Assembly: GCF_000830005.1 (NCBI RefSeq)
Contig: NZ_CP010408.1
Span: forward strand, 62,001-126,000
Length of the DNA stretch: 64,000 bases
Direction of reading: 5' to 3'
Source: Streptomyces vietnamensis
GTDB taxonomy: Bacteria > Actinomycetota > Actinomycetes > Streptomycetales > Streptomycetaceae
Under the pieces are notes generated by a model. The model did not search any database, had not been told where the DNA came from, and was given only the letters and a program-made list of their open reading frames with translations. Of the stretch, positions 25,352-52,121 are shown piece after piece. A program made the position numbers and the translations under genes. Each line of letters opens with the position of its first letter. The first letter of the stretch is position 1.

Positions 25352-25575
25352 CACTTCACGTGCGATCCCGGTGGCTGTGGGCTGCCACTCCTTCGGTGGC
25401 TGGAAGGATTCGCTCTTCGGCGACCACCACATCTACGGCAACGCGGAGTGCACCTCTACACCCGCGGCATGGTCGTCACCACCCGCTGGCCGGACCCGTC
25501 CGAGGCCCCGGCCGGCGTCCACTTGGGATCCCTGCGCAACCACTGACGCACGGCAGGCACGACAGGCACGCCCGG

Positions 25576-25611
25576 ACGGCCCGTACGGATCGGAGGATCC
25601 GTACGGGCCGT
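25576..25611. terminator. 16-bp perfect hairpin terminator
   Basis: Arms ACGGCCCGTACGGATC (25576-25591) and its complement (25596-25611) enclose a GGAG tetraloop and are followed by TTT on the plus strand. It separates the iolB scrap from the RTX gene. Confidence 0.85.
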
Positions 25612-25715
25612 TTCGCGCCGCCATCCGGTTGCACCGCGAGCCCGCATCGTTACTGGCCGCGCCCCAGGGGGGCATCGGTCTGCACGAACGATCGTGCCGA
25701 CCGGAGGGAAGAACG

Positions 25716-26873
25716 ATGACGAGCAGTCGTCACGGAACCGGAGCCAGGACGCGGCTTCGTCGTGCCGTCGCGAGCGGGTTTGCGGGGGCGCTCGTGCTCG
25801 GAGGCGTCCTCGGTCTCGGCGCGACGGACGCGGGCGCGGCGGCGCCGACCTGCCTGGGCCGCCCGGCCACGATCGTCATCACCACGCCCGGCGTGACGAC
25901 GAACGGGACCAGCGGCGCGGACGTGATCATCGGGACCTCAGGCGATGACATCATCCACGGCTTGGGCGGGAACGACCGGATCTGCAGCCTCGGTGGCACC
26001 GACGTCGTCAGTGGCGGACTCGGCAACGACCAGCTCGACGGCGGCACGGGCTCCGACGAGCTGGTCGGCGATACCTTCGGCATTCAAAGCAACACCACGG
26101 GCGGCGGCAACGACCTTCTGATCGGAGGCGACGAGGCCGACACTCTGATCGGGGACAGTCGGTCCGTGGACGGCGGAGACGCCACAGGCGGCGGGAACGA
26201 CCGCCTGTACGGCGGCGACGACGCCGACGTCATGATCGGCGACAGCTTCGGCACCAACGCGTCCGGCGGCGGGCGCGACTACCTCGACGGCGGCGACGGC
26301 ACCGACGACATGGGGGGCGACTCCCGGGCCCTTCACGGCACCGCCCAGGGCGCCGGCGACGACGTGCTCTTCAGCGGAGCGGGCGCCAGCGACCGCATGG
26401 TCGGCGACAGCGACGCCGACGGCAACGTCGAAGGCAACGACGGCGATGACACCCTGATCGCGGGCGGCGACAGTGTGATCGTTATCGGGGACCACAACAT
26501 CCATGACGAGTTCGGCGGTTACGCGACGGGCTCAGGCCGTGACCACATCATCGGCACCGGCGGGCCGGACCTGCTGGTCGGCGAGAGTTCGGTGGTCGAC
26601 GCCAACCTCAGCTCGGCCAGCGCCGACCGGATCGAGGGGGGCGGCGGTAACGACCAGATCTTCGGGGACAACACCGACTTCTTCGTCACCAGGACGGTCG
26701 GCACCGCTGGCGGCCGCGACGACCTGCGCGGCGACGCCGGGGCCGACACCCTCCGCGCCGGCCCCGGCGACGATGACCTCGACGGCGGTGCCGACGGCCC
26801 GGACGTCTGCGACGGCGAGGCTGGCACCGACAGCGCCACCCAGTCCTGCGAGACGACCCCGAACGTCCCGTAA
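25716..26873 (+). CDS. Secreted RTX-like calcium-binding repeat protein
   Basis: 385 residues from ATG at 25716, with GGAGGG 8 bases upstream. A signal peptide (R-R-A-V-A-S-G-F-A-G-A-L-V-L-G-G, cleavage near A-G-A-A-A) leads into a body of Gly/Asp nonapeptides such as G-G-N-D-R-I-C-S-L, G-G-L-G-N-D-Q-L-D, G-G-D-E-A-D-T-L-I, that is, haemolysin-type calcium-binding repeats forming a parallel beta-roll. Two Cys pairs near the ends may close the roll. No catalytic domain or type I secretion genes are present, so it is likely exported by Sec and acts as a calcium-dependent surface or matrix protein. Confidence 0.85.
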   Translation: MTSSRHGTGARTRLRRAVASGFAGALVLGGVLGLGATDAGAAAPTCLGRPATIVITTPGVTTNGTSGADVIIGTSGDDIIHGLGGNDRICSLGGTDVVSGGLGNDQLDGGTGSDELVGDTFGIQSNTTGGGNDLLIGGDEADTLIGDSRSVDGGDATGGGNDRLYGGDDADVMIGDSFGTNASGGGRDYLDGGDGTDDMGGDSRALHGTAQGAGDDVLFSGAGASDRMVGDSDADGNVEGNDGDDTLIAGGDSVIVIGDHNIHDEFGGYATGSGRDHIIGTGGPDLLVGESSVVDANLSSASADRIEGGGGNDQIFGDNTDFFVTRTVGTAGGRDDLRGDAGADTLRAGPGDDDLDGGADGPDVCDGEAGTDSATQSCETTPNVP

Positions 26874-27220: not shown

Positions 27221-27240
27221 TTCAGTCGCTCGGGTCGCTA
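27221..27240. repeat. Iteron relic matching the putative origin
   Basis: The 20 bases are identical to 48077-48096 in the origin-proximal repeat cluster. It lies just beyond the 3' end of a decayed copy of the third replication gene, the same place iterons occupy at 51561-51583. Confidence 0.7.
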
Positions 27241-27254
27241 TGTGGCGGCCCAGG

Positions 27255-27446
27255 TTATCGGGGAAGGCTTATGCCGAGTTCGCGCATGGCGCTGGACGGG
27301 GGGCCACCTTCGCTGTGCTCGGTCTTGCGGCCTTGACAATGGGTTGGAGGGCGCCGGGGTCGACGGGGGCAGAGCTGGCATAGAGGCCGTTGGGCTCGGT
27401 GTCGCGGCCGTACGGAAGGTGCCGGAAGCTCGTGAGGCCTTGACGG
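27255..27446 (-). pseudogene. Decayed copy of the small replication-operon gene
   Basis: The minus strand reads K-A-S-R-A-S-G-T-F-R in one frame and, after a deletion and frame change, G-R-K-T-E-H-S-E-G-G-P-P-S-S-A-M-R-E-L-G-I-S-L-P before a TAA. Both halves match the gene at 51138-51539 (K-A-S-R-A-S-G-T-F-R and G-R-K-T-E-R-S-E-G-G-P-P-S-S-A-M-R-E-L-G-I-T-L-P). The first ~80 codons are absent. It is a relic of a second replication module. Confidence 0.75.
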
Positions 27447-27593
27447 TGGCGACTTCGCCCCAGCCTCCCGCGCGGCGCACGTCTTGCTGCTCACCGTCGC
27501 GGCGCTGGCCTGCCCCACCCTGATTGCACGTTTCCACTTCGGCAGCAACCGGCTGGGGCAGGTATAGTGCGGTGCAACTTGTTACTCAGGCGC

Positions 27594-44126: not shown

Positions 44127-45500
44127 TCAGGGCACCACCGGTCCGGAGCCGCCAAGGCTCCGGCGTTGGCGCGAGCGCCGACGGGAACGGCTACTTGGTC
44201 CCGCCTCCGCTGACGGTGCGAAGTCCCCGGCGGGCGGCGAAGCGCACTGATCCGGCTCTGGGTTCCCGAGTCGGTCGTGGTGCGTGGCCGGATTGAAGGT
44301 GAGGGCGAGGGACCGTGGTCCGCTGGTCCGTGTGAACAGGTGGGGTGTTGGCAGGGCTGCATTGGCAAGGCGGCGGGAGAGCGCCCTGTGCAGAGTCGGA
44401 ACGTCCAAGTAGGGGCACGTGTCTGCACCCCGGTCCGTCAGCACGTGGAGCAGAGCGGTCGTGAAGGCCGTGTACGGGCTTGCAGGATTCGCTGGGTCGC
44501 GGTCCAGAGCCCATCCGTCCGGCCCGGTGGCTGTGAGGACGTACTCCTCCTTCGGGCCACCGGGAGCTGTGTCCTCCGCGTCTGTCCGGTCGGAGAAGTC
44601 GGCGAGCGCACTGCCGCTGGCGCATGCGTCGAGGATGACTAGTGTTCTGTTCGCCTGACTGCCACGCACCAGGTCGTGAACATAGGTGAAGGGCAGCGCC
44701 GTATCCGTGATGCTGCTGCCGGAACTGCTACCGAGGAACAGGTCCCCGCGAAGATCGGTAGTTCCGTGACCTGCGAAATAGAAGATCAGGGTGTCAGTTG
44801 CCTCAGCGGCCGCCGCCCTGAGAGCGCTGATCGTCGCATCGGGTGTCGCCTCGTCCCCGATCAGGGTGACTGTCCGGGGAACACCGAGATCGCCGAGCTG
44901 TTCTGCCAGCTTGAGGGCTGACGCTTCGACGCCCGGCAAGGCTGTGCCCTGCTGGCTGGCGCCCACGACGACGGCGCGGGACTCCTGCGGGTCCGGGCAG
45001 GTAGGCCGAGAACCCGCCTCCCGATGCCCCGTCCGGTGCGCCCCACAGCGCTCCGGTGCCACCGGGTACCGCGTCCACTCGCGTGACTCGCCTCCGGTCG
45101 GGGCCGTCACCGTTCGCTGGTGCTGGTTAGCCGCGAGTCTGGACAGCCGAAGGAGAAGCTCGCCCACGTCATCGCGGGCCGCGTCGGTCCGGCGGATCTG
45201 ACGCATGGCCGAGGCGAAGACACCTTCGGCGAGGTCCGCGCAGACGCGGTTGTCGGGCACACGCGAGTACAGGTAGCGGTGCACGACCACGGCGAACTGT
45301 TCCTTCAGCGCCCACTCGTCCACTTCACAGGGGACGGTGGGTACAGGGGCCTCCCGGGGCGGGCGAGTAGTTTTAGCGAGCTGCGGCCGGCTCGACGAGG
45401 TGCCGGCCGCTCCGAGAGAAGAACTGGCGAGGAGTCGGCGGAAGACGTCGCTGTCCTCCGCCCGATCGATGTCATGCCGTTGGCCGGCCAACGCGCTCAT
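44127..45500 (-). CDS. Caspase-like (C14) protease with N-terminal helical domain
   Basis: 457 residues. The peptidase core (~173-380) has V-V-V-G-A-S-Q-Q-G, I-F-Y-F-A-G-H-G with catalytic His245, and V-I-L-D-A-C-A-S-G with catalytic Cys293. N-terminal residues ~60-135 form a helical domain (A-L-K-E-Q-F-A-V-V-V-H-R-Y-L) of unknown type, and the last ~60 residues are Pro/Ser/Arg-rich and disordered. The ATG overlaps the sigma-factor stop (ATGA), so the two are translated together. Bacterial caspase-like enzymes coupled to regulators are recognised in conflict and defence systems; the substrate here is unknown. Confidence 0.85.
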   Translation of the reverse strand: MSALAGQRHDIDRAEDSDVFRRLLASSSLGAAGTSSSRPQLAKTTRPPREAPVPTVPCEVDEWALKEQFAVVVHRYLYSRVPDNRVCADLAEGVFASAMRQIRRTDAARDDVGELLLRLSRLAANQHQRTVTAPTGGESREWTRYPVAPERCGAHRTGHREAGSRPTCPDPQESRAVVVGASQQGTALPGVEASALKLAEQLGDLGVPRTVTLIGDEATPDATISALRAAAAEATDTLIFYFAGHGTTDLRGDLFLGSSSGSSITDTALPFTYVHDLVRGSQANRTLVILDACASGSALADFSDRTDAEDTAPGGPKEEYVLTATGPDGWALDRDPANPASPYTAFTTALLHVLTDRGADTCPYLDVPTLHRALSRRLANAALPTPHLFTRTSGPRSLALTFNPATHHDRLGNPEPDQCASPPAGDFAPSAEAGPSSRSRRRSRQRRSLGGSGPVVP

Positions 45501-46228
45501 CCCTTCTCAATGCGGCGCCGGTGGCGGTACAGGGCCCCTTCCACAGCTCGGGGAGTCGTCCCGTCGGCGAGGAGTTCGGCGATCTCCTCGTGCGAGTAGC
45601 CGTCGGTATCCAGGGCGATGATCCTGGCGAGTCTCGGATCGCGGGCGTGCAGGGTCTGCAGGGCTTCCCTGGCCGCGGTCCTGTCCATGGCCAGGGCACC
45701 TACTCGCTGGTGCGTGGGAACAGGTGCGGACGATCCCAGCTGCTGCGCCAGGTTCCGGAGCTCCAGCCTGCGCACGTTCTGGCGGTCCAACCAGGCCCGA
45801 TATTCGTCGGCGAAGGCGTAGATGCAGGATCCGATGAAGTAGGTCTTCAGACTGGCCCCGCCGGCCGGATTCCACTGACGGGCTTGCAGCGCCTTGTCCT
45901 TGAACCGCTTGAAGGCTCTGAGGATCGTGTCCTGGACCAGGTCACAACGGTCATCCTCGGACCAGTCTGACGGGGGATCCCCCAGCCTGATGCCTCTGCG
46001 GGCACACTTCGTAAAGATCTTGCGGCTGATGGTCCAGGCATGCAGGACATGCAGGCCATGGTCGATCAGTTGCTCGGCAAAGGTGTCGAACTCCGGTCCT
46101 TCGAATCCGGACTGCTCGAGGTACTCGACAAGGGCTAGATCATCAGCGTGCTGCTGAGACGGTGCGCTCGCGGGTGGTTGCGGGTTCGGCTGCTCGGCGC
46201 TGGGGCCGATGGGGCGGCGGGGCAGCAT
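45497..46228 (-). CDS. ECF-like RNA polymerase sigma factor
   Basis: 243 residues. Region 2 lies at ~95-140 (D-D-R-C-D-L-V-Q-D-T-I-L-R-A-F-K-R-F-K-D with S-L-K-T-Y-F-I-G-S-C), and region 4 at ~190-240 (A-L-Q-T-L-H-A-R-D-P-R-L-A-R-I-I-A-L and G-Y-S-H-E-E-I-A-E-L-L ... A-V-E-G-A-L-Y-R-H-R-R-R-I). The extra N-terminal ~85 residues are unlike ordinary ECF factors. It directly precedes and overlaps the caspase gene, with no anti-sigma gene, so the caspase may itself act on the sigma factor or its targets. Confidence 0.8.
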   Translation of the reverse strand: MLPRRPIGPSAEQPNPQPPASAPSQQHADDLALVEYLEQSGFEGPEFDTFAEQLIDHGLHVLHAWTISRKIFTKCARRGIRLGDPPSDWSEDDRCDLVQDTILRAFKRFKDKALQARQWNPAGGASLKTYFIGSCIYAFADEYRAWLDRQNVRRLELRNLAQQLGSSAPVPTHQRVGALAMDRTAAREALQTLHARDPRLARIIALDTDGYSHEEIAELLADGTTPRAVEGALYRHRRRIEKG

Positions 46229-47287: not shown

Positions 47288-47926
47288 GTGAGGTACACGG
47301 CCACCGTCGGCGCCGCCCGTCTGGCGTTCCAGGATGAATCCGGCAAGTCGGTGCTCCTTGACCGCCTCTCCGACGCGTGGGCCTGGCTGGAGGCGCACGC
47401 TCTGCTGTCCAAGGTCCCGAGCCAGACCGAGACGTTCCGACGAGTCACCCAGGCGGGCCGCGATCTGCTGGCGGACCCGCAGGGCATCCTCCGGTTCGAC
47501 GCGCGCCACAGACTGGCCGGCCCCTTGCACCCCGCGCTCGAGGGCACCATCCGGACGTACTACGACCTCGGCGACTACGAGACGGCCTGCTTCGCCGCGA
47601 TAAAGGCCGCCGAGGTCACCGTCCGGGACACTGCTGGGTACGACAACTCTCAGCTCGGGGTCGGGCTCATGTGCAAGGCGTTCACACCGCACCAGAACGG
47701 AAAGACCGGCGGCCCACTCGCTGACGTCGGCGCCGAGGGCGGCGAGCAGGAAGCAGCTTCCGCGTTGTTCACTGGAGCCATCGGCGCCTACAAGAACCCG
47801 ACGAGTCACCGGACAGTCGACTTCGAGGATCCGATCGAGGCGGCCGAGATCATCCAGCTCGCCAACCTGCTGCTGCGTCAGGTCGACCGCGCGGCACACC
47901 GCCAAGCCATGGAGCTGACGGACTGA
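47288..47926 (+). CDS. TIGR02391-like (Ymh) protein, possibly N-truncated
   Basis: 212 residues if translated from GTG at 47288; a TAG at ~47239 closes the frame upstream. The C-terminal half carries the family pattern: H-P-A-L-E-G-T-I-R-T-Y-Y, F-A-A-I-K-A-A-E-V-T-V-R, G-V-G-L-M-C-K-A-F, E-A-A-S-A-L-F-T-G-A-I-G-A-Y-K-N-P-T-S-H-R, then I-I-Q-L-A-N-L-L-L-R. The K-N-P-x-S-H-R box is typical of these helical proteins, often found beside restriction or defence genes. The usual family members have a longer N-terminal domain, so this may be a truncated copy. Confidence 0.7.
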   Translation: MRYTATVGAARLAFQDESGKSVLLDRLSDAWAWLEAHALLSKVPSQTETFRRVTQAGRDLLADPQGILRFDARHRLAGPLHPALEGTIRTYYDLGDYETACFAAIKAAEVTVRDTAGYDNSQLGVGLMCKAFTPHQNGKTGGPLADVGAEGGEQEAASALFTGAIGAYKNPTSHRTVDFEDPIEAAEIIQLANLLLRQVDRAAHRQAMELTD

Positions 47927-48071: not shown

Positions 48072-48536
48072 GGTCGCTTCAGTCGCTCGGGTCGCTGAAG
48101 TGACAGCCTCGGAGTGACCAGCGACTAAAGCTCAGCGACCCTGGAAATCTTCAGTCGCTGGAACAAAAGCGCAGGTCAAGAGCCTGATAGCGACATGGGC
48201 AGCGACTGAAGCGACCGAAGTTCTACATATCGGTGCTGCAGATCGCGTGTGTGCGTGTCATATATAGGCGTCTTGAGTCGCTTCAGTCGCTGATTAGTCC
48301 TGGATGGTGCCCCTGACCTGCGGGTTTATTGAAGCTACCGAAGGCGCTTGCCCAGCGATCGAGTCGCTTGTGTCAGTCGCTCGGTCGCTGGTCGGGCAAG
48401 AGAGCGGCACGCCCGGATGGGAAGGTGGTCCACCCGAACAGACGTCTTCGCTAGTCTGTCTCCGTCGTTGAGTCGCTTCAGTCGCTATTGGGAGATCGAA
48501 TGCCTGCTGACCTGCGGGTTTCCTCCAGCGACTCAA
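48072..48536. repeat. Iteron cluster, putative replication origin
   Basis: The 16-mer RGTCGCTTCAGTCGCT occurs at 48072-48087, 48276-48291 and 48471-48486 on the plus strand and 48201-48216 on the minus strand. Partial copies lie at ~48119-48140, 48150-48161, 48361-48392 and 48527-48535. Each is built of two GTCGCT hexamers about 9 bp apart. An AT-richer stretch (CATATATAGG near 48258-48269) lies between. A 14-base repeat TGACCTGCGGGTTT occurs at 48313 and 48508. The cluster ends at the start of the primase-polymerase gene, the classic place for a plasmid origin. Confidence 0.75.
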
Positions 48537-49609
48537 GGAGCACCATCGCTCCAGCCGCCCAGCCCAGTCCGTTGACGCTGGCCCGCTGGTGTGCCAGCCA
48601 CGGCTGGCCGGTCCACCCGCTCGCCCCCGGTAAGAAGACCCCCGCTGCCAACTGTCCCGCCTGCCGCGAGCCCGGGCACGACCGCAGGACCTGCTCCTGC
48701 CGGACAGCAGGCCGTTGGTGTCACGGCTTCCACGCCGCCACCCTGGACAGCATCCGTATCCAGGAATGGTGGGGACCCAGGCCGCAGATGGGTGTGGGCG
48801 TGGCCTGCGGGCCGGCGAACCTCGTGGTCATCGACATCGACGCCCACCCCGCACCGCCACCGGCACGTAACCGGCTCCTGCCCGGCATCGACATCGCCGA
48901 GGACATCGACGTGTCCGCGATGACCACCGGCTTCCACACCCTGGCTGTGCTCGCCGCTCTCCGCGGTCAGCCCAGCCCTGCCGACGACACCACCACCCTG
49001 CGGGTGCGCACCCCCTCCGGTGGCCTGCACGTCTGGTACCGCCAGACCGATTCCCGCCGCTGGCAGTGCTCCTCCGGCTCCAGCACCACCCGCGCCCTGG
49101 CCTGGCAGGTCGACGTCCGGGCCGACGGCGGCTACATCATCGCGCCCGGCACCACCACCGATGCCGGCACCTACACCCCGCTCGGCACCGTCCGGACCCC
49201 GGCGCCGCTCCCGGCCTGGCTCGCCCAGGAACTCCAGCGCACCCACCACCTGCCCGCCGCCCACGTATCCGCCCCCCGCCCCGTTCCCGGCCGCGCCCGG
49301 CAGGCGGTTCTCGCCGCCCGTGGCAGCGGCAACCCCGTCGTTGCCGTACTCACCACCGTCCTCGCCGAGATCGCCGACTGCGCCCACGCCGCCGAAGGCA
49401 CCGGGTTCACCGAGAAACTCAACCGCGCCGCCTACACCGTCGGCGGTCTCGTCGCCGCAGGACACCTCACCGGTCAGGACGCGGAGAACGCCCTCATGGA
49501 AACCGCCCGCCTCGCCCGTCCCGGGCAGGAATCCCGTGCCCAGGCGATCATCCGCAGCGGCATGACCGCCGGAGCCCGCCGTCCCCTTCACCCCGGGAGC
49601 CGCCCGTGA
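48500..49609 (+). CDS. Bifunctional DNA primase-polymerase (prim-pol)
   Basis: 369 residues from ATG at 48500, 5 bases after GGGAG; a TTG at 48488 is possible. The archaeo-eukaryotic primase core shows L-V-V-I-D-I-D with the catalytic Asp pair at 112 and 114 and T-P-S-G-G-L-H-V-W-Y at ~171-180. An N-terminal zinc-knuckle-like C-P-A-C-x(9)-C-S-C (~52-67) precedes. Such enzymes start and extend DNA on plasmids and phages. It overlaps the helicase gene by GTGA and lies beside the iterons. Confidence 0.9.
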   Translation: MPADLRVSSSDSRSTIAPAAQPSPLTLARWCASHGWPVHPLAPGKKTPAANCPACREPGHDRRTCSCRTAGRWCHGFHAATLDSIRIQEWWGPRPQMGVGVACGPANLVVIDIDAHPAPPPARNRLLPGIDIAEDIDVSAMTTGFHTLAVLAALRGQPSPADDTTTLRVRTPSGGLHVWYRQTDSRRWQCSSGSSTTRALAWQVDVRADGGYIIAPGTTTDAGTYTPLGTVRTPAPLPAWLAQELQRTHHLPAAHVSAPRPVPGRARQAVLAARGSGNPVVAVLTTVLAEIADCAHAAEGTGFTEKLNRAAYTVGGLVAAGHLTGQDAENALMETARLARPGQESRAQAIIRSGMTAGARRPLHPGSRP

Positions 49610-51141
49610 CCAGCCCCGCCGGCGGCGAGCCGAACATGCTCTTCGACTTCGACCCCCACGCCATGGCCGAGCAGATCATGGCCAAGGCCGCGCCCGTCCT
49701 GCCGCCCCAGCACGGCGTACCGGCCGAGCAGACGACGCCGACAGCCCCGCCGACCGCGACCGCCCACGGCCTGCGACCCGACTCCCTCACCGACCGCGGC
49801 AACGCCAAGCTCTTCGTCAGGCTCTACCAGGCCGACTTCCGCCACGTCCCCGGACTGGGCTGGTACCGGTGGGACACCACCCGCTGGCAGGTCGACGAGG
49901 ACGACTCCGTCCTGTGGGCCGCCGGCGAGATCGGCGAGCACCTCGCCACCACCGACCCCACCGGCGAGCACCCGGCCGAGGCGCTCAAGAAACACCGCCG
50001 CCGAGCCCTGAGCACCTCCGGCATCAACGCGATGCTCACCCAGGCCAAATCCGCGCCCGGCATGGTCCTCAAGGCCGAATACCTCGACGCCGACCCCTAC
50101 GCCCTGTGCACCCCGGCCGGGATCGTCGACCTCCATACCGGCCTCGTGCGCACCCCCGACCCAAACAAGGACTTCCACTCCCGCTCGACGACCGTCGGCC
50201 CGGCCGCGATGCCGATCCCCAGATTCCAGCGCTTCCTCGCCGACACCTTCGGCGACGACGCCGAAGGCACCCAGATGATCAGCTTCCTGCAGCTGCTCCT
50301 GGGCTACTCCATCACCGGCGACGTCGGCGGCCAGGTCATGCCGTTCCTCTTCGGCGCCGGCAAGAACGGCAAGTCCGTCCTCCTCGACGTTTCAATGAAG
50401 CTCCTGGGCGACTACGCCGACGCCGCACCGCCCGGCTTCCTCATGGCCCGCCTCTACGAAGGCCACCCCACCGACCTCGCAGAACTCCACGGCCGACGCG
50501 TCGTCGTCTGCTCCGAGGTCAAGCCCGGAGACAAGTTCGACGAGGCCCGTGTCAAGCACCTGACCGGCGGCGACCGCATCAAGGCCCGCCGCATGCGGCA
50601 GGACTTCTTCTCCTTCAACCCCACCCACAAGCTCTGGCTCCTGGGCAACCACCGCCCCGAGGTCGGCACCGGCGGCTTCGCCTTCTGGCGCCGCATGCGC
50701 CTTATCCCCTTCGAGCGCACCGTCGCCGACGAGCGCCGCATCGACAACCTCGCCGACATCCTCGTCGCCGAGGAAGGCCCGGGCATCCTCAACTGGCTCA
50801 TCGACGGCGCCCGCCGCTACCTCGCCGGCGAGAAGGACCTCACCGGCCCCGACAAGGTCCGCATCGCCACCAACGCCTACGCCGAGACCGAGGACCACAC
50901 CGGCCGCTTCTTCGACGAAGCCTGCATCACCAACCCGGACTGCCGAACCGAGCAGAAAACCCTCTACGACGCCTACCGCGGCTGGTGCCTGAGCGAGGGA
51001 TGCATCCCCATGAGCAACCGCACCTTCGCCGCCCGCGCCCGCGAACTGCTCGGCCTCGCCTCCCCGAAAGAGATGATCTTGTCGAATTCGAGGAAGTACT
51101 ACCCTGGCATCGGGCTGCTCGCCGACGAGGAGATGGCATGA
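49606..51141 (+). CDS. Phage/plasmid primase, D5/P4-type helicase
   Basis: 511 residues from GTG at 49606. A D5_N-like domain (~65-235) with G-L-G-W-Y-R-W-D-T-T-R-W is followed by a superfamily 3 helicase: Walker A F-G-A-G-K-N-G-K-S at ~249-257, V-V-V-C-S-E-V as Walker B (~290), and W-L-L-G-N-H-R-P-E-V with the motif C Asn (~345). The end is a winged-helix-like C-terminal domain. It would unwind the origin for the prim-pol beside it. Confidence 0.92.
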   Translation: MTSPAGGEPNMLFDFDPHAMAEQIMAKAAPVLPPQHGVPAEQTTPTAPPTATAHGLRPDSLTDRGNAKLFVRLYQADFRHVPGLGWYRWDTTRWQVDEDDSVLWAAGEIGEHLATTDPTGEHPAEALKKHRRRALSTSGINAMLTQAKSAPGMVLKAEYLDADPYALCTPAGIVDLHTGLVRTPDPNKDFHSRSTTVGPAAMPIPRFQRFLADTFGDDAEGTQMISFLQLLLGYSITGDVGGQVMPFLFGAGKNGKSVLLDVSMKLLGDYADAAPPGFLMARLYEGHPTDLAELHGRRVVVCSEVKPGDKFDEARVKHLTGGDRIKARRMRQDFFSFNPTHKLWLLGNHRPEVGTGGFAFWRRMRLIPFERTVADERRIDNLADILVAEEGPGILNWLIDGARRYLAGEKDLTGPDKVRIATNAYAETEDHTGRFFDEACITNPDCRTEQKTLYDAYRGWCLSEGCIPMSNRTFAARARELLGLASPKEMILSNSRKYYPGIGLLADEEMA

Positions 51142-51539
51142 GTTCACTGATCAGCGAGAACGATCTCAAGCACGAGACCGCGCTCGTCTGGCTCGAGGAC
51201 ATCACCCACCTCGACTACGTACGCCAGAGCCTCGACCGTCTCCCCACCCGCAGCGGCAAGCCCGCCTACCACCGCGACGGCCGCATGGTCGGCTACGCCA
51301 CACTCAGCGCCGACGCCAAGGCCTCCCGCGCCTCCGGCACCTTCCGGCGGCGCGTCTTCTGGCTCCTGCCCCACGACCGCGACAGCGAGCCCGTCGGCCT
51401 GTACGCCAGCTCCGCGCCGGCCGAAGCCGTAGACCCAGACACCCTCGAACCACGAGTCAAAGGCAGGAAGACGGAACGCTCGGAGGGCGGTCCTCCATCA
51501 AGCGCGATGCGGGAACTCGGGATAACGCTTCCCCTGTGA
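51138..51539 (+). CDS. Small conserved protein of the replication operon
   Basis: 133 residues; ATG overlaps the helicase stop (ATGA). It starts with helical H-E-T-A-L-V-W-L-E-D-I-T-H-L-D-Y and ends with a charged tail G-R-K-T-E-R-S-E-G-G-P-P-S-S-A-M-R-E-L-G-I. No known family. A decayed copy at 27255-27446 keeps the same tail, showing that this gene travels with iterons. Its position suggests a role in replication or its control. Confidence 0.65.
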   Translation: MSSLISENDLKHETALVWLEDITHLDYVRQSLDRLPTRSGKPAYHRDGRMVGYATLSADAKASRASGTFRRRVFWLLPHDRDSEPVGLYASSAPAEAVDPDTLEPRVKGRKTERSEGGPPSSAMRELGITLPL

Positions 51540-51560
51540 CGCCAGCTTCCCGAGACAGAG

Positions 51561-51583
51561 ACTGAAGCGACTCAAGCGACTGA
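51561..51583. repeat. Iteron copies downstream of replication genes
   Basis: Three AGCGACT-type hexamer units (ACTGAAGCGACT and AAGCGACTGA) lie 22 bases after the third replication gene and match the inverted orientation of the origin iterons. The replication operon is thus flanked by iterons on both sides. Confidence 0.7.
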
Positions 51584-52121
51584 ACTCTCCACATCCCTGA
51601 AGCTTGAGCGCCTTGGAGTTCACGGCTCCCTGCGGGCTACTGAAGAGCCCGCCATCGGACACACTGGCCAGCCCCGTGAACCTCGGCCGACGACGGTGCC
51701 TGGACGACGCTGCGGCCCTCGCGTCCCGCCCAGCGGCGCGAGGGGAATCGTTCTTCTGCCCCGTTGCTGAAGCCGCACCCACCGGCTGGCGGCATGAATG
51801 CCCGCCGCAGGACTACGTGGCTATGTGCACGAGAACCGGCTCTGGCACACATTCCGTGAAGTTGAGTCGGCTCAGTTCGTTCCTGTACGGACACGAACCG
51901 CTGACCTGCCGGTTCATCAGGACTGCCGGTCCTGCAGGCCGAGGGCCGGCACAGGTTCACGGAATGTGTGCCAGACCCCGTTCTCGTGAACATCGGGCGC
52001 GGGCGAGTGCCTCCCGAACTGCTGTCGAAACGCTGCTACGACGTGAACAGAGCCACTCGTCCCTGTATCTGGCAGCGGAGCTGGCCCGTTCATCGGCGGG
52101 GCGGGAAACGATATGTGTGGT
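51584..52121. other. Non-coding region between replication and transfer operons
   Basis: About 540 bases without a supported gene. It contains the long inverted repeat listed separately. As the rightward replication and leftward transfer operons converge here, terminator functions are expected. Confidence 0.45.
51824..51992. repeat. 37-bp inverted repeat around a 95-bp core
   Basis: Arms at 51824-51860 and 51956-51992 match in inverted order with three mismatches in 37; each holds TCTGGCACACATTCCGTGAA. The core includes a smaller imperfect dyad GTTCGTTCCTG/CGGACACGAAC at ~51875-51897. It could be a terminator, centromere, transfer origin or a miniature mobile element. Confidence 0.8.

Follow-up and report, generated by a model that had tools for sequence, protein, structure and literature searches.

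A probable replication origin and initiation operon of an SCP1-like Streptomyces plasmid, with its iterons arranged as a dyad

Results

The window, a stretch of 64,000 nucleotides from Streptomyces vietnamensis, contains an iteron array followed by a three-gene operon. Judged from sequence, this locus probably comprises the origin of replication of an SCP1-like Streptomyces plasmid together with its initiation operon; a dyad would be loaded with helicase and primed by a prim-pol. DUF6009, the product of the third gene, is best read as a putative accessory to replication. The operon occupies 110-113.5 kb of a 286.6-kb replicon, at 39% of its length and off the middle. The replicon appears to be a linear-looking plasmid, its ends sharing a terminal inverted repeat some 440 bp long with 81% identity; at the left end the repeat is offset by 72 bases.

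The replication operon

The operon (48500-51539, + strand) consists of genes for a prim-pol, an SF3 (D5-type) helicase and DUF6009, all three of which are open over their family models. The prim-pol, a bifunctional primase/polymerase (48500..49609, +), matched Prim-Pol PF09250 at E 3.9e-35, with 122 bits against a cut-off of 22.8. The helicase (49606..51141, +) matched D5_N, DUF5906 and TIGR01613, and the profiles place an SF3/D5-type core in it (D5_N PF08706, 119 bits, above cut-off; primase_Cterm TIGR01613, 270 bits, cut-off 108.7). The calls of both genes in the first-pass annotation were therefore borne out by profile matches over the cut-offs. The C-terminal stretch of the helicase bears a weak resemblance to winged-helix models: at E <=0.05, Pox_D5 was matched by 34/34 helicases and RFX, a winged helix, by 15/34, while the window's own helicase scored 18.1 bits with Pox_D5, under the Pfam cut-off of 21.4.

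The third gene (51138..51539, +; 133 aa) had been left nameless by that annotation. It encodes Pfam DUF6009 (PF19472, E 1.3e-62, 209.9 bits against a cut-off of 28.6), and UniRef names a relative, encoded on a 5.2-kb contig of S. antibioticus, 'Putative replication initiation protein'.

The iteron array and its dyad

The array (48072..48533, both strands) holds 16 RGTCGCT units, 11 forward and 5 reverse. The repeats had been described as ending at the prim-pol start; the array in fact overlaps the prim-pol reading frame by 34 bases, and an iteron (48527-48533) and a third TGACCTGC box (48508-48515) lie inside the first codons. The exact 16-mer RGTCGCTTCAGTCGCT was found in the array at 48072 (+), 48201 (-), 48276 (+) and 48471 (+), which accounts for all four clean repeats noted earlier, one of them being inverted. 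The further repeats reported after the third gene amount to one degenerate reverse pair (51566..51581, -) with one mismatch to the 16-mer.

Exactly five copies of RGTCGCTTCAGTCGCT occur in the whole 9.15-Mb genome. The fifth is chromosomal (C1:4189999), in a repetitive intergenic stretch rich in GAGCGACC, with flanking reading frames that presumably resemble FHA-domain and phosphatase genes. A second origin at this site was rejected, as six queries with replication proteins returned no more than chance matches in the surrounding 20 kb. Counting both strands, the 286.6-kb replicon has 44 copies of AGTCGCT, of which 11 lie in the array, 2 follow the operon and 31 are elsewhere. Given the density elsewhere on the replicon, the array of ~460 bp should contain about 0.05 by expectation; it contains 11, and an origin of the repeats in chance or low complexity was therefore rejected.

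Part of the array forms a symmetric layout of GCAGGTCA box, reverse iteron pair, centre of ~61 bp, forward iteron pair and TGACCTGC box. The left box (48171..48178, +), in a run of conserved columns, starts 30 bp outside the reverse pair (48201..48216, -), and the right box (48314..48321, +) ends 30 bp outside the forward pair (48276..48291, +). The iteron pairs are in 9-bp phase. The central tract (48216..48276, 61 bp between the two 15-mers) contains TATA elements together with an alternating purine-pyrimidine run of 15 bp, has a GC content of ~50% against ~70% outside the array, and is the presumed melting site. Downstream, a conserved CTTCGCTAGTCTGTCTCCGTCGT is followed by the forward iteron pair 48471-48486 (together 48446..48486, +); conservation suggests a presumed promoter with its operator, and a consensus promoter scan gave no match there.

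These features bear on a different reading, in which the array would serve chiefly as operator and copy-control (incompatibility) site and the working origin would lie elsewhere. The iteron pair beside the operon start is in keeping with that reading, and iterons of other plasmids often serve both as origin and as operator or copy control. GC skew, too, does not turn at the operon: the raw curve peaks near 215 kb, and the detrended one has its extremes near 40 and 179 kb. It was dropped as proof of an origin for that reason. A pure operator, however, needs no dyad, no AT-richer alternating centre and no pair of near-invariant boxes. In S. clavuligerus (L110), moreover, most of the array sits 3' of DUF6009, at a distance from the promoter; its centre is dyad-like and its boxes are imperfect, and one iteron pair and one single unit are retained at the prim-pol start. 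We consider a mainly regulatory role, with the origin elsewhere, improbable.

A relic of DUF6009, as the first-pass annotation had stated, lies elsewhere in the window (about 27261-27489, -), broken across frames and recovered as three collinear tblastn pieces (E 6e-17). Two iterons adjoin it at about 27224-27239, so that relic and iterons span 27221..27489 (-). This relic with its iterons, together with the frequent occurrence of several replication operons on one contig among relatives, would fit a locus that is itself decaying, left over from a second replicon acquired by fusion. Such a history is most improbable for an operon with three open genes and a dyad whose two boxes carry zero mismatches, in a genome where no second helicase of this family and no second intact DUF6009 was found at E 0.001.

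Conservation of the module and of the dyad

Related plasmids with the same genes number in the hundreds. Among the best 80 of 174 relatives, DUF6009 follows the helicase within 1 kb in 80/80 loci, and a prim-pol is present somewhere in the stretch in 78/80. Primase, helicase and repeats occur together as one module in more than 100 relatives, which agrees with the earlier description of a self-contained replicon, the best reading of a locus known from its sequence. Several phased direct repeats adjoining an initiator gene and kept in relatives are what generically marks an iteron plasmid, and they are found here.

The dyad layout with both boxes was detected in 134/166 units, the window counted, where 0.4 would be expected from shuffled flanks. 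At most two mismatches in total were allowed over both boxes, the best pair being taken, with the identical choice in the shuffled control. By iteron type, the layout was found in 98/109 units of type A, 32/34 of B, 3/4 of C and 1/1 of D, and after removal of identical stretches in 85/94, 28/30, 3/4 and 1/1 (0.28 expected). Only 54/165 units pass when exact boxes are required, and a search taking the tightest box pair missed most B boxes. Under the strict rule 32/166 units lack the full dyad, including the nearest named relative (L104), which fails through a changed base in one unit. Boxes lie 28-31 bp out on both sides in 82/85 units of A and 18/28 of B, which is less regular. In the centre, the longest run of alternating purines and pyrimidines measures 19.3 in A, 22.3 in B and 16.0 in C, against 6.4, 7.2 and 7.0 after shuffling; in the type D centre it is 5.0 against 6.5.

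Two helicase-DUF6009 pairs that have no prim-pol of their own (L069, L162) keep the cognate dyad upstream. A displaced prim-pol was considered for L054, L069 and L078 and rejected: the prim-pol in each comes from the class-B operon next to it, which is intact in L054, broken in L069 and truncated by the end of the stretch in L078, and the class-A helicase-DUF6009 pair has none of its own within the stretch. Large Streptomyces plasmids often hold several replication modules together.

Iteron types and protein clades

The iteron letters shift with the protein clade (AGTCGCT in A, AGTCCCT in B, AGTCCCG in C), whereas the GCAGGTCA and TGACCTGC boxes are near-invariant and do not change with it. 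Protein class and iteron type were compared in 144 complete operons for which 400 bp or more of upstream DNA was present, overlapping loci being retained. Class A carried type A in 102 operons and class B type B in 32; C accounted for 3. L077 was counted with B; the 64% cut-off places it in A, but it is 73% identical to B. Seven of the 144 had fewer than four units of types A-C in the counted stretch, among them L110, with its array 3' of DUF6009, and L107, with a type D array. The iteron had been taken as new, a view that does not hold, since the window's letters stand upstream of those 102 related operons; repeats sought in relatives were thus present.

Two changes of iteron type suffice on each of the three protein trees, whereas with shuffled labels the minimum was 20-26. 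Residues separating classes A and B number 21 in the helicase (14 in D5_N, 1 in the C-terminal part), 9 in DUF6009 and 2 in the prim-pol. Lying mostly in D5_N, they give no indication of a C-terminal reader, and the search for the iteron reader through such residues gave no clear answer.

DUF6009 could itself be the iteron-reading initiator, recruiting helicase and prim-pol. Its constant company with the helicase in the 80 loci, a tree that follows iteron type with two changes only, like both other trees, its 9 class-separating columns in 133 and the UniRef name of its relative all favour this role. Inverted doublets were nevertheless seen in 4/7 distant relatives (L105, L107, L171, L172), and beside the operons of L105, L171 and L172 no DUF6009 was found. 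Phage Hurricane likewise has an inverted doublet, just downstream of its primase/helicase gene, yet no phage record matched DUF6009. In the predicted DUF6009 model beta structure predominates and the listing shows no helix-turn-helix pattern; such a protein may nonetheless bind DNA. On balance, an initiator role for DUF6009 seems rather unlikely, and that of an accessory is preferred. No dyad was found in the distant relatives L106, L178 and L179 or in phage Strobilo.

Discussion

Proposed mechanism

We infer that the iterons would be read by the SF3 helicase, perhaps by way of the winged-helix-like part at its C-terminus, and that this helicase would assemble as two rings, one on each arm of the dyad, and melt the central tract. 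The prim-pol would then lay primers at the melted centre for host enzymes to extend, and forks would depart both ways from the dyad. Less certainly, the initiator might repress its own operon through the iteron pair beside the operon start, different iteron letters might keep co-resident replicons independent, and DUF6009 might aid loading or priming or set copy number.

We tentatively suggest, at somewhat less than even confidence, an origin code: the scaffold (dyad, spacing, alternating centre and GCAGGTCA/TGACCTGC boxes) would be fixed, and the iteron letters alone would be swapped, in concert over ~15 copies, with each change of initiator clade. The letters would define compatibility groups, allowing several such replicons to share one plasmid; DUF6009 would be a new initiation cofactor, and one factor shared by every group would read the boxes. 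Fused prim-pol/helicase relatives and some mycobacteriophages may have the scaffold too. The literature covered, to which Redenbach 1999 and Zhang 2009 do not belong, yielded no account of such a code or of its possible compatibility role.

Antibiotic gene clusters can reside on large Streptomyces plasmids. Should the iteron letters prove to be an identity tag of the module, compatible plasmid pairs could be predicted from sequence, compatible vector origins could be selected and the tag-reading protein could be asked for directly. DUF6009, present in 323 plasmid records, would gain a working context.

Comparison with known systems

The replicon is of a known kind. SCP1-like replicons are treated as common in Streptomyces linear plasmids in the passages available from PMC13152386. 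As cited from Redenbach 1999 in portions of two later papers, they are described either as having a central origin with a replication gene adjoining a primase/helicase-like gene (PMC5331497) or as having a helicase with an iteron and replicating bidirectionally (PMC13152386). By these descriptions, the present locus resembles SCP1-like replicons in its helicase and primase gene by an origin with iterons, on a large, often linear Streptomyces replicon. Neither a third gene nor a dyad layout nor iteron types figure in the SCP1-like descriptions in those portions of PMC13152386 and PMC5331497. An indirect link to this type is given by S. clavuligerus, whose pSCL4 is called SCP1-like in PMC13152386 and one of whose megaplasmids, pF1D31A, has this operon (L110).

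According to PMC7581432, SaPI Rep and SCCmec Cch2/CCPol-MP share a D5-type SF3 helicase, gene-adjacent iterons and a primase partner with this locus; the third protein of the SCCmec operon, MP, is small and largely beta, and DUF6009 can be likened to it by description. The primase here is a Prim-Pol rather than an A-family polymerase, and the origin here normally lies upstream of the operon, unlike in SaPI/SCCmec. P4 alpha and pRN1 ORF904, like this locus, combine a primase and an SF3 helicase, together with a C-terminal winged helix that the helicase here may also have, and P4 alpha binds origin repeats (PMC4234260, in part). In pRN1, primase and SF3 helicase are on one chain, whereas here the activities of these two systems are on separate chains; pRN1 further differs in having a stem-loop and no iterons, and P4 in its Toprim-type primase (same portion of PMC4234260). 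Finally, the excerpted description of pWTY27 (PMC3583192) has a noncoding stretch with iterons and a predicted primase/polymerase gene, as here, with RepA binding the iteron and a bidirectional mode; its repeats differ (GTGGGAAC / TTCCCAC), and its RepA is termed a hypothetical protein.

Organisation of the replicon and its operon

The window covers positions 62001-126000 of contig C2. This contig is 286,635 bp long, one of two in a genome presumed from its closest matches to be Streptomyces, and looks linear because its ends carry related inverted sequences (~440 bp, 81% identity). The prim-pol (48500-49609), SF3 helicase (49606-51141) and DUF6009 (51138-51539) genes follow one another with overlapping start and stop codons. 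At E 0.001, neither a second helicase of this family nor a second intact DUF6009 was found elsewhere in the genome. Five further Prim-Pol matches were obtained, all chromosomal and one of them marginal.

The first-pass annotation had proposed a relic of the third gene, and this proved real: it lies at 27221-27489 with iterons beside it, which reads as a vestige of another such replicon once carried by the plasmid. A reading frame at 25371-26873 matched RTX-type calcium-binding nonapeptide repeats (PF00353, 84 bits). Just upstream of the origin, a TIGR02391 (Hypoth_ymh) protein is encoded at 47288-47926; nothing so named is annotated at the equivalent place in an S. venezuelae relative. The minus strand of 44127-46228 encodes a caspase-domain protein of the EACC1-associated type, slightly below that model's cut-off, and a neighbouring protein that gave weak sigma-70-like matches.

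Conserved elements of the iteron array

The array at 48072-48533 holds the four exact 16-mers noticed at first pass, each composed of two 7-bp units 9 bp apart, and 16 RGTCGCT units in total; the repeats claimed past the third gene amount to one reverse pair after the operon. When 72 upstream regions were aligned, the window's among them, the conserved parts proved to be an AGCGAC unit (48120), the left box CGCAGGTCA, a reverse iteron pair, TATA-like and alternating GTGTGCG elements between the iteron pairs, a forward iteron pair, TGACCTGC with a T run, and a long block that closes with another forward pair and directly precedes the prim-pol start. A third box and a further iteron lie within the first codons of prim-pol.

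Downstream, an imperfect inverted repeat (51823-51993; arms 49 nt, 86%) includes an iteron-like TTGAGTCGGCTCAGT at 51862 and, between its arms, a TGACCTGC box at 51902; it looks like a decayed half-origin module.

The boxed dyad and its association with the helicase

Of 166 locus-strand units, 148 contained two same-type iteron doublets inverted relative to each other, and 134 of these carried both boxes with at most two mismatches in total, where shuffled flanks were expected to give 0.4. Among distinct boxed dyads, both boxes stood at 28-31 bp in 82/85 of class A, 18/28 of class B, 2/3 of class C and 0/1 of type D.

A wider search accepted any inverted, equally phased 6-mer doublet; the background was 0/49 for C2 chunks and 3/78 for unrelated loci, the latter with the phase range slightly widened. 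Four of seven distant relatives were positive, with phases of 8 bp (L105), 10 bp (L107) and 9 bp (L171 and L172), while no inverted doublet was found in L106, L178 or L179. One of two mycobacteriophages was also positive: Hurricane carries an inverted 9-bp-phased doublet immediately downstream of its primase/helicase gene (L261 5353-5757), and none was found in Strobilo. The L171 and L172 proteins are fused prim-pol/helicases; of the genomes they come from, G048 lacks any DUF6009 above the cut-off, and in G078 the sole DUF6009 sits on a different contig. Since such loci have the doublets with no adjacent DUF6009, the dyad layout accompanies the helicase more widely than it does DUF6009.

Among 72,556 plasmid records, 323 matched DUF6009, and 311 of those were Streptomyces; no match occurred in 50,697 phage records, and 2/296 sampled genomes of the phylum had it (the source genome of the window and a second from its genus). 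The helicase matched 409 plasmid records and, at E 1e-40, 62/199 genomes of the genus, a figure that includes the genome of the window. Outside Actinobacteria, DUF6009 occurred in two plasmid records (Nostoc, Natrinema). In the Nostoc sphaeroides plasmid (L181 5983-6363), the gene is flanked by two DUF3854 genes beside an HTH gene, and no SF3 helicase is annotated over the 12.3-kb stretch.

Correspondence of iteron type and protein class

The sample was widened by stretches for 70 regions, picked from helicase matches among genomes of the genus. Class A was paired with AGTCGCT, class B with AGTCCCT and class C with AGTCCCG; one locus, L107, had AGCCCCT. Cognate copies upstream averaged 14.8, 14.8 and 11.5 for A, B and C, and non-cognate copies 0 to 0.65. 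In more distant plasmids (L108, L109) the same array appears with one base changed throughout. Trees were available for 127 helicase, 127 DUF6009 and 117 prim-pol sequences; on each of them iteron type changed twice, the minimum for three types, against at least 20 changes with shuffled labels. As all three proteins track type equally, the trees do not reveal which one reads the iteron.

L154 and L160 contain adjacent complete A and B operons, each preceded by its own array. On 13 contigs with at least two helicase-DUF6009 operons, a hand-compiled list that includes a few operons truncated at a contig end or having no array, one same-type pair was counted versus 5.5 after shuffling (P 0.005); this count leaves out lone class-A helicase copies, which seven contigs have beside a class-A operon. 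The rarity of same-type pairs is a lead bearing on compatibility. The lone copies (L111, L116, L154, L160, L165, L166, L180) have matches starting at query residue 28-58 and lie close to a full operon, except in L180, where it is elsewhere on the contig; L165 and L166 also have an extra DUF6009.

Relation to known replicons

The excerpts consulted describe the SCP1-like replicon as a known, common type (PMC13152386; PMC5331497). Searching the literature for the iteron letters returned four papers, none on plasmid origins as judged by titles, and DUF6009 was not named in the literature searched. Given the known replicon and a limited search (Redenbach 1999 and Zhang 2009 via reference lists), we claim no priority for the iteron, which had at first seemed new. 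The replicon kind itself is known; the part worth following is the origin scaffold with exchangeable iteron letters.

According to excerpts of PMC7581432, SaPI Rep, which appears to sit on its iterons as a pair of hexamers, recognises them through its C-terminal domain, and repeats adjoining its own gene are bound by Cch2; in part of PMC4234260, the winged helix of P4 alpha binds origin repeats. By analogy, two SF3 rings might be loaded on the two dyad arms, the central tract would then be melted, prim-pol would prime, and forks could proceed bidirectionally; a central origin and bidirectional replication are reported for Streptomyces linear plasmids in the portion of PMC3583192 consulted. DUF6009, with a predicted mostly beta structure, may be likened to SCCmec MP, also a member of a three-gene primase-helicase operon; MP confers priming ability on its polymerase, and the likeness is one of analogy only.
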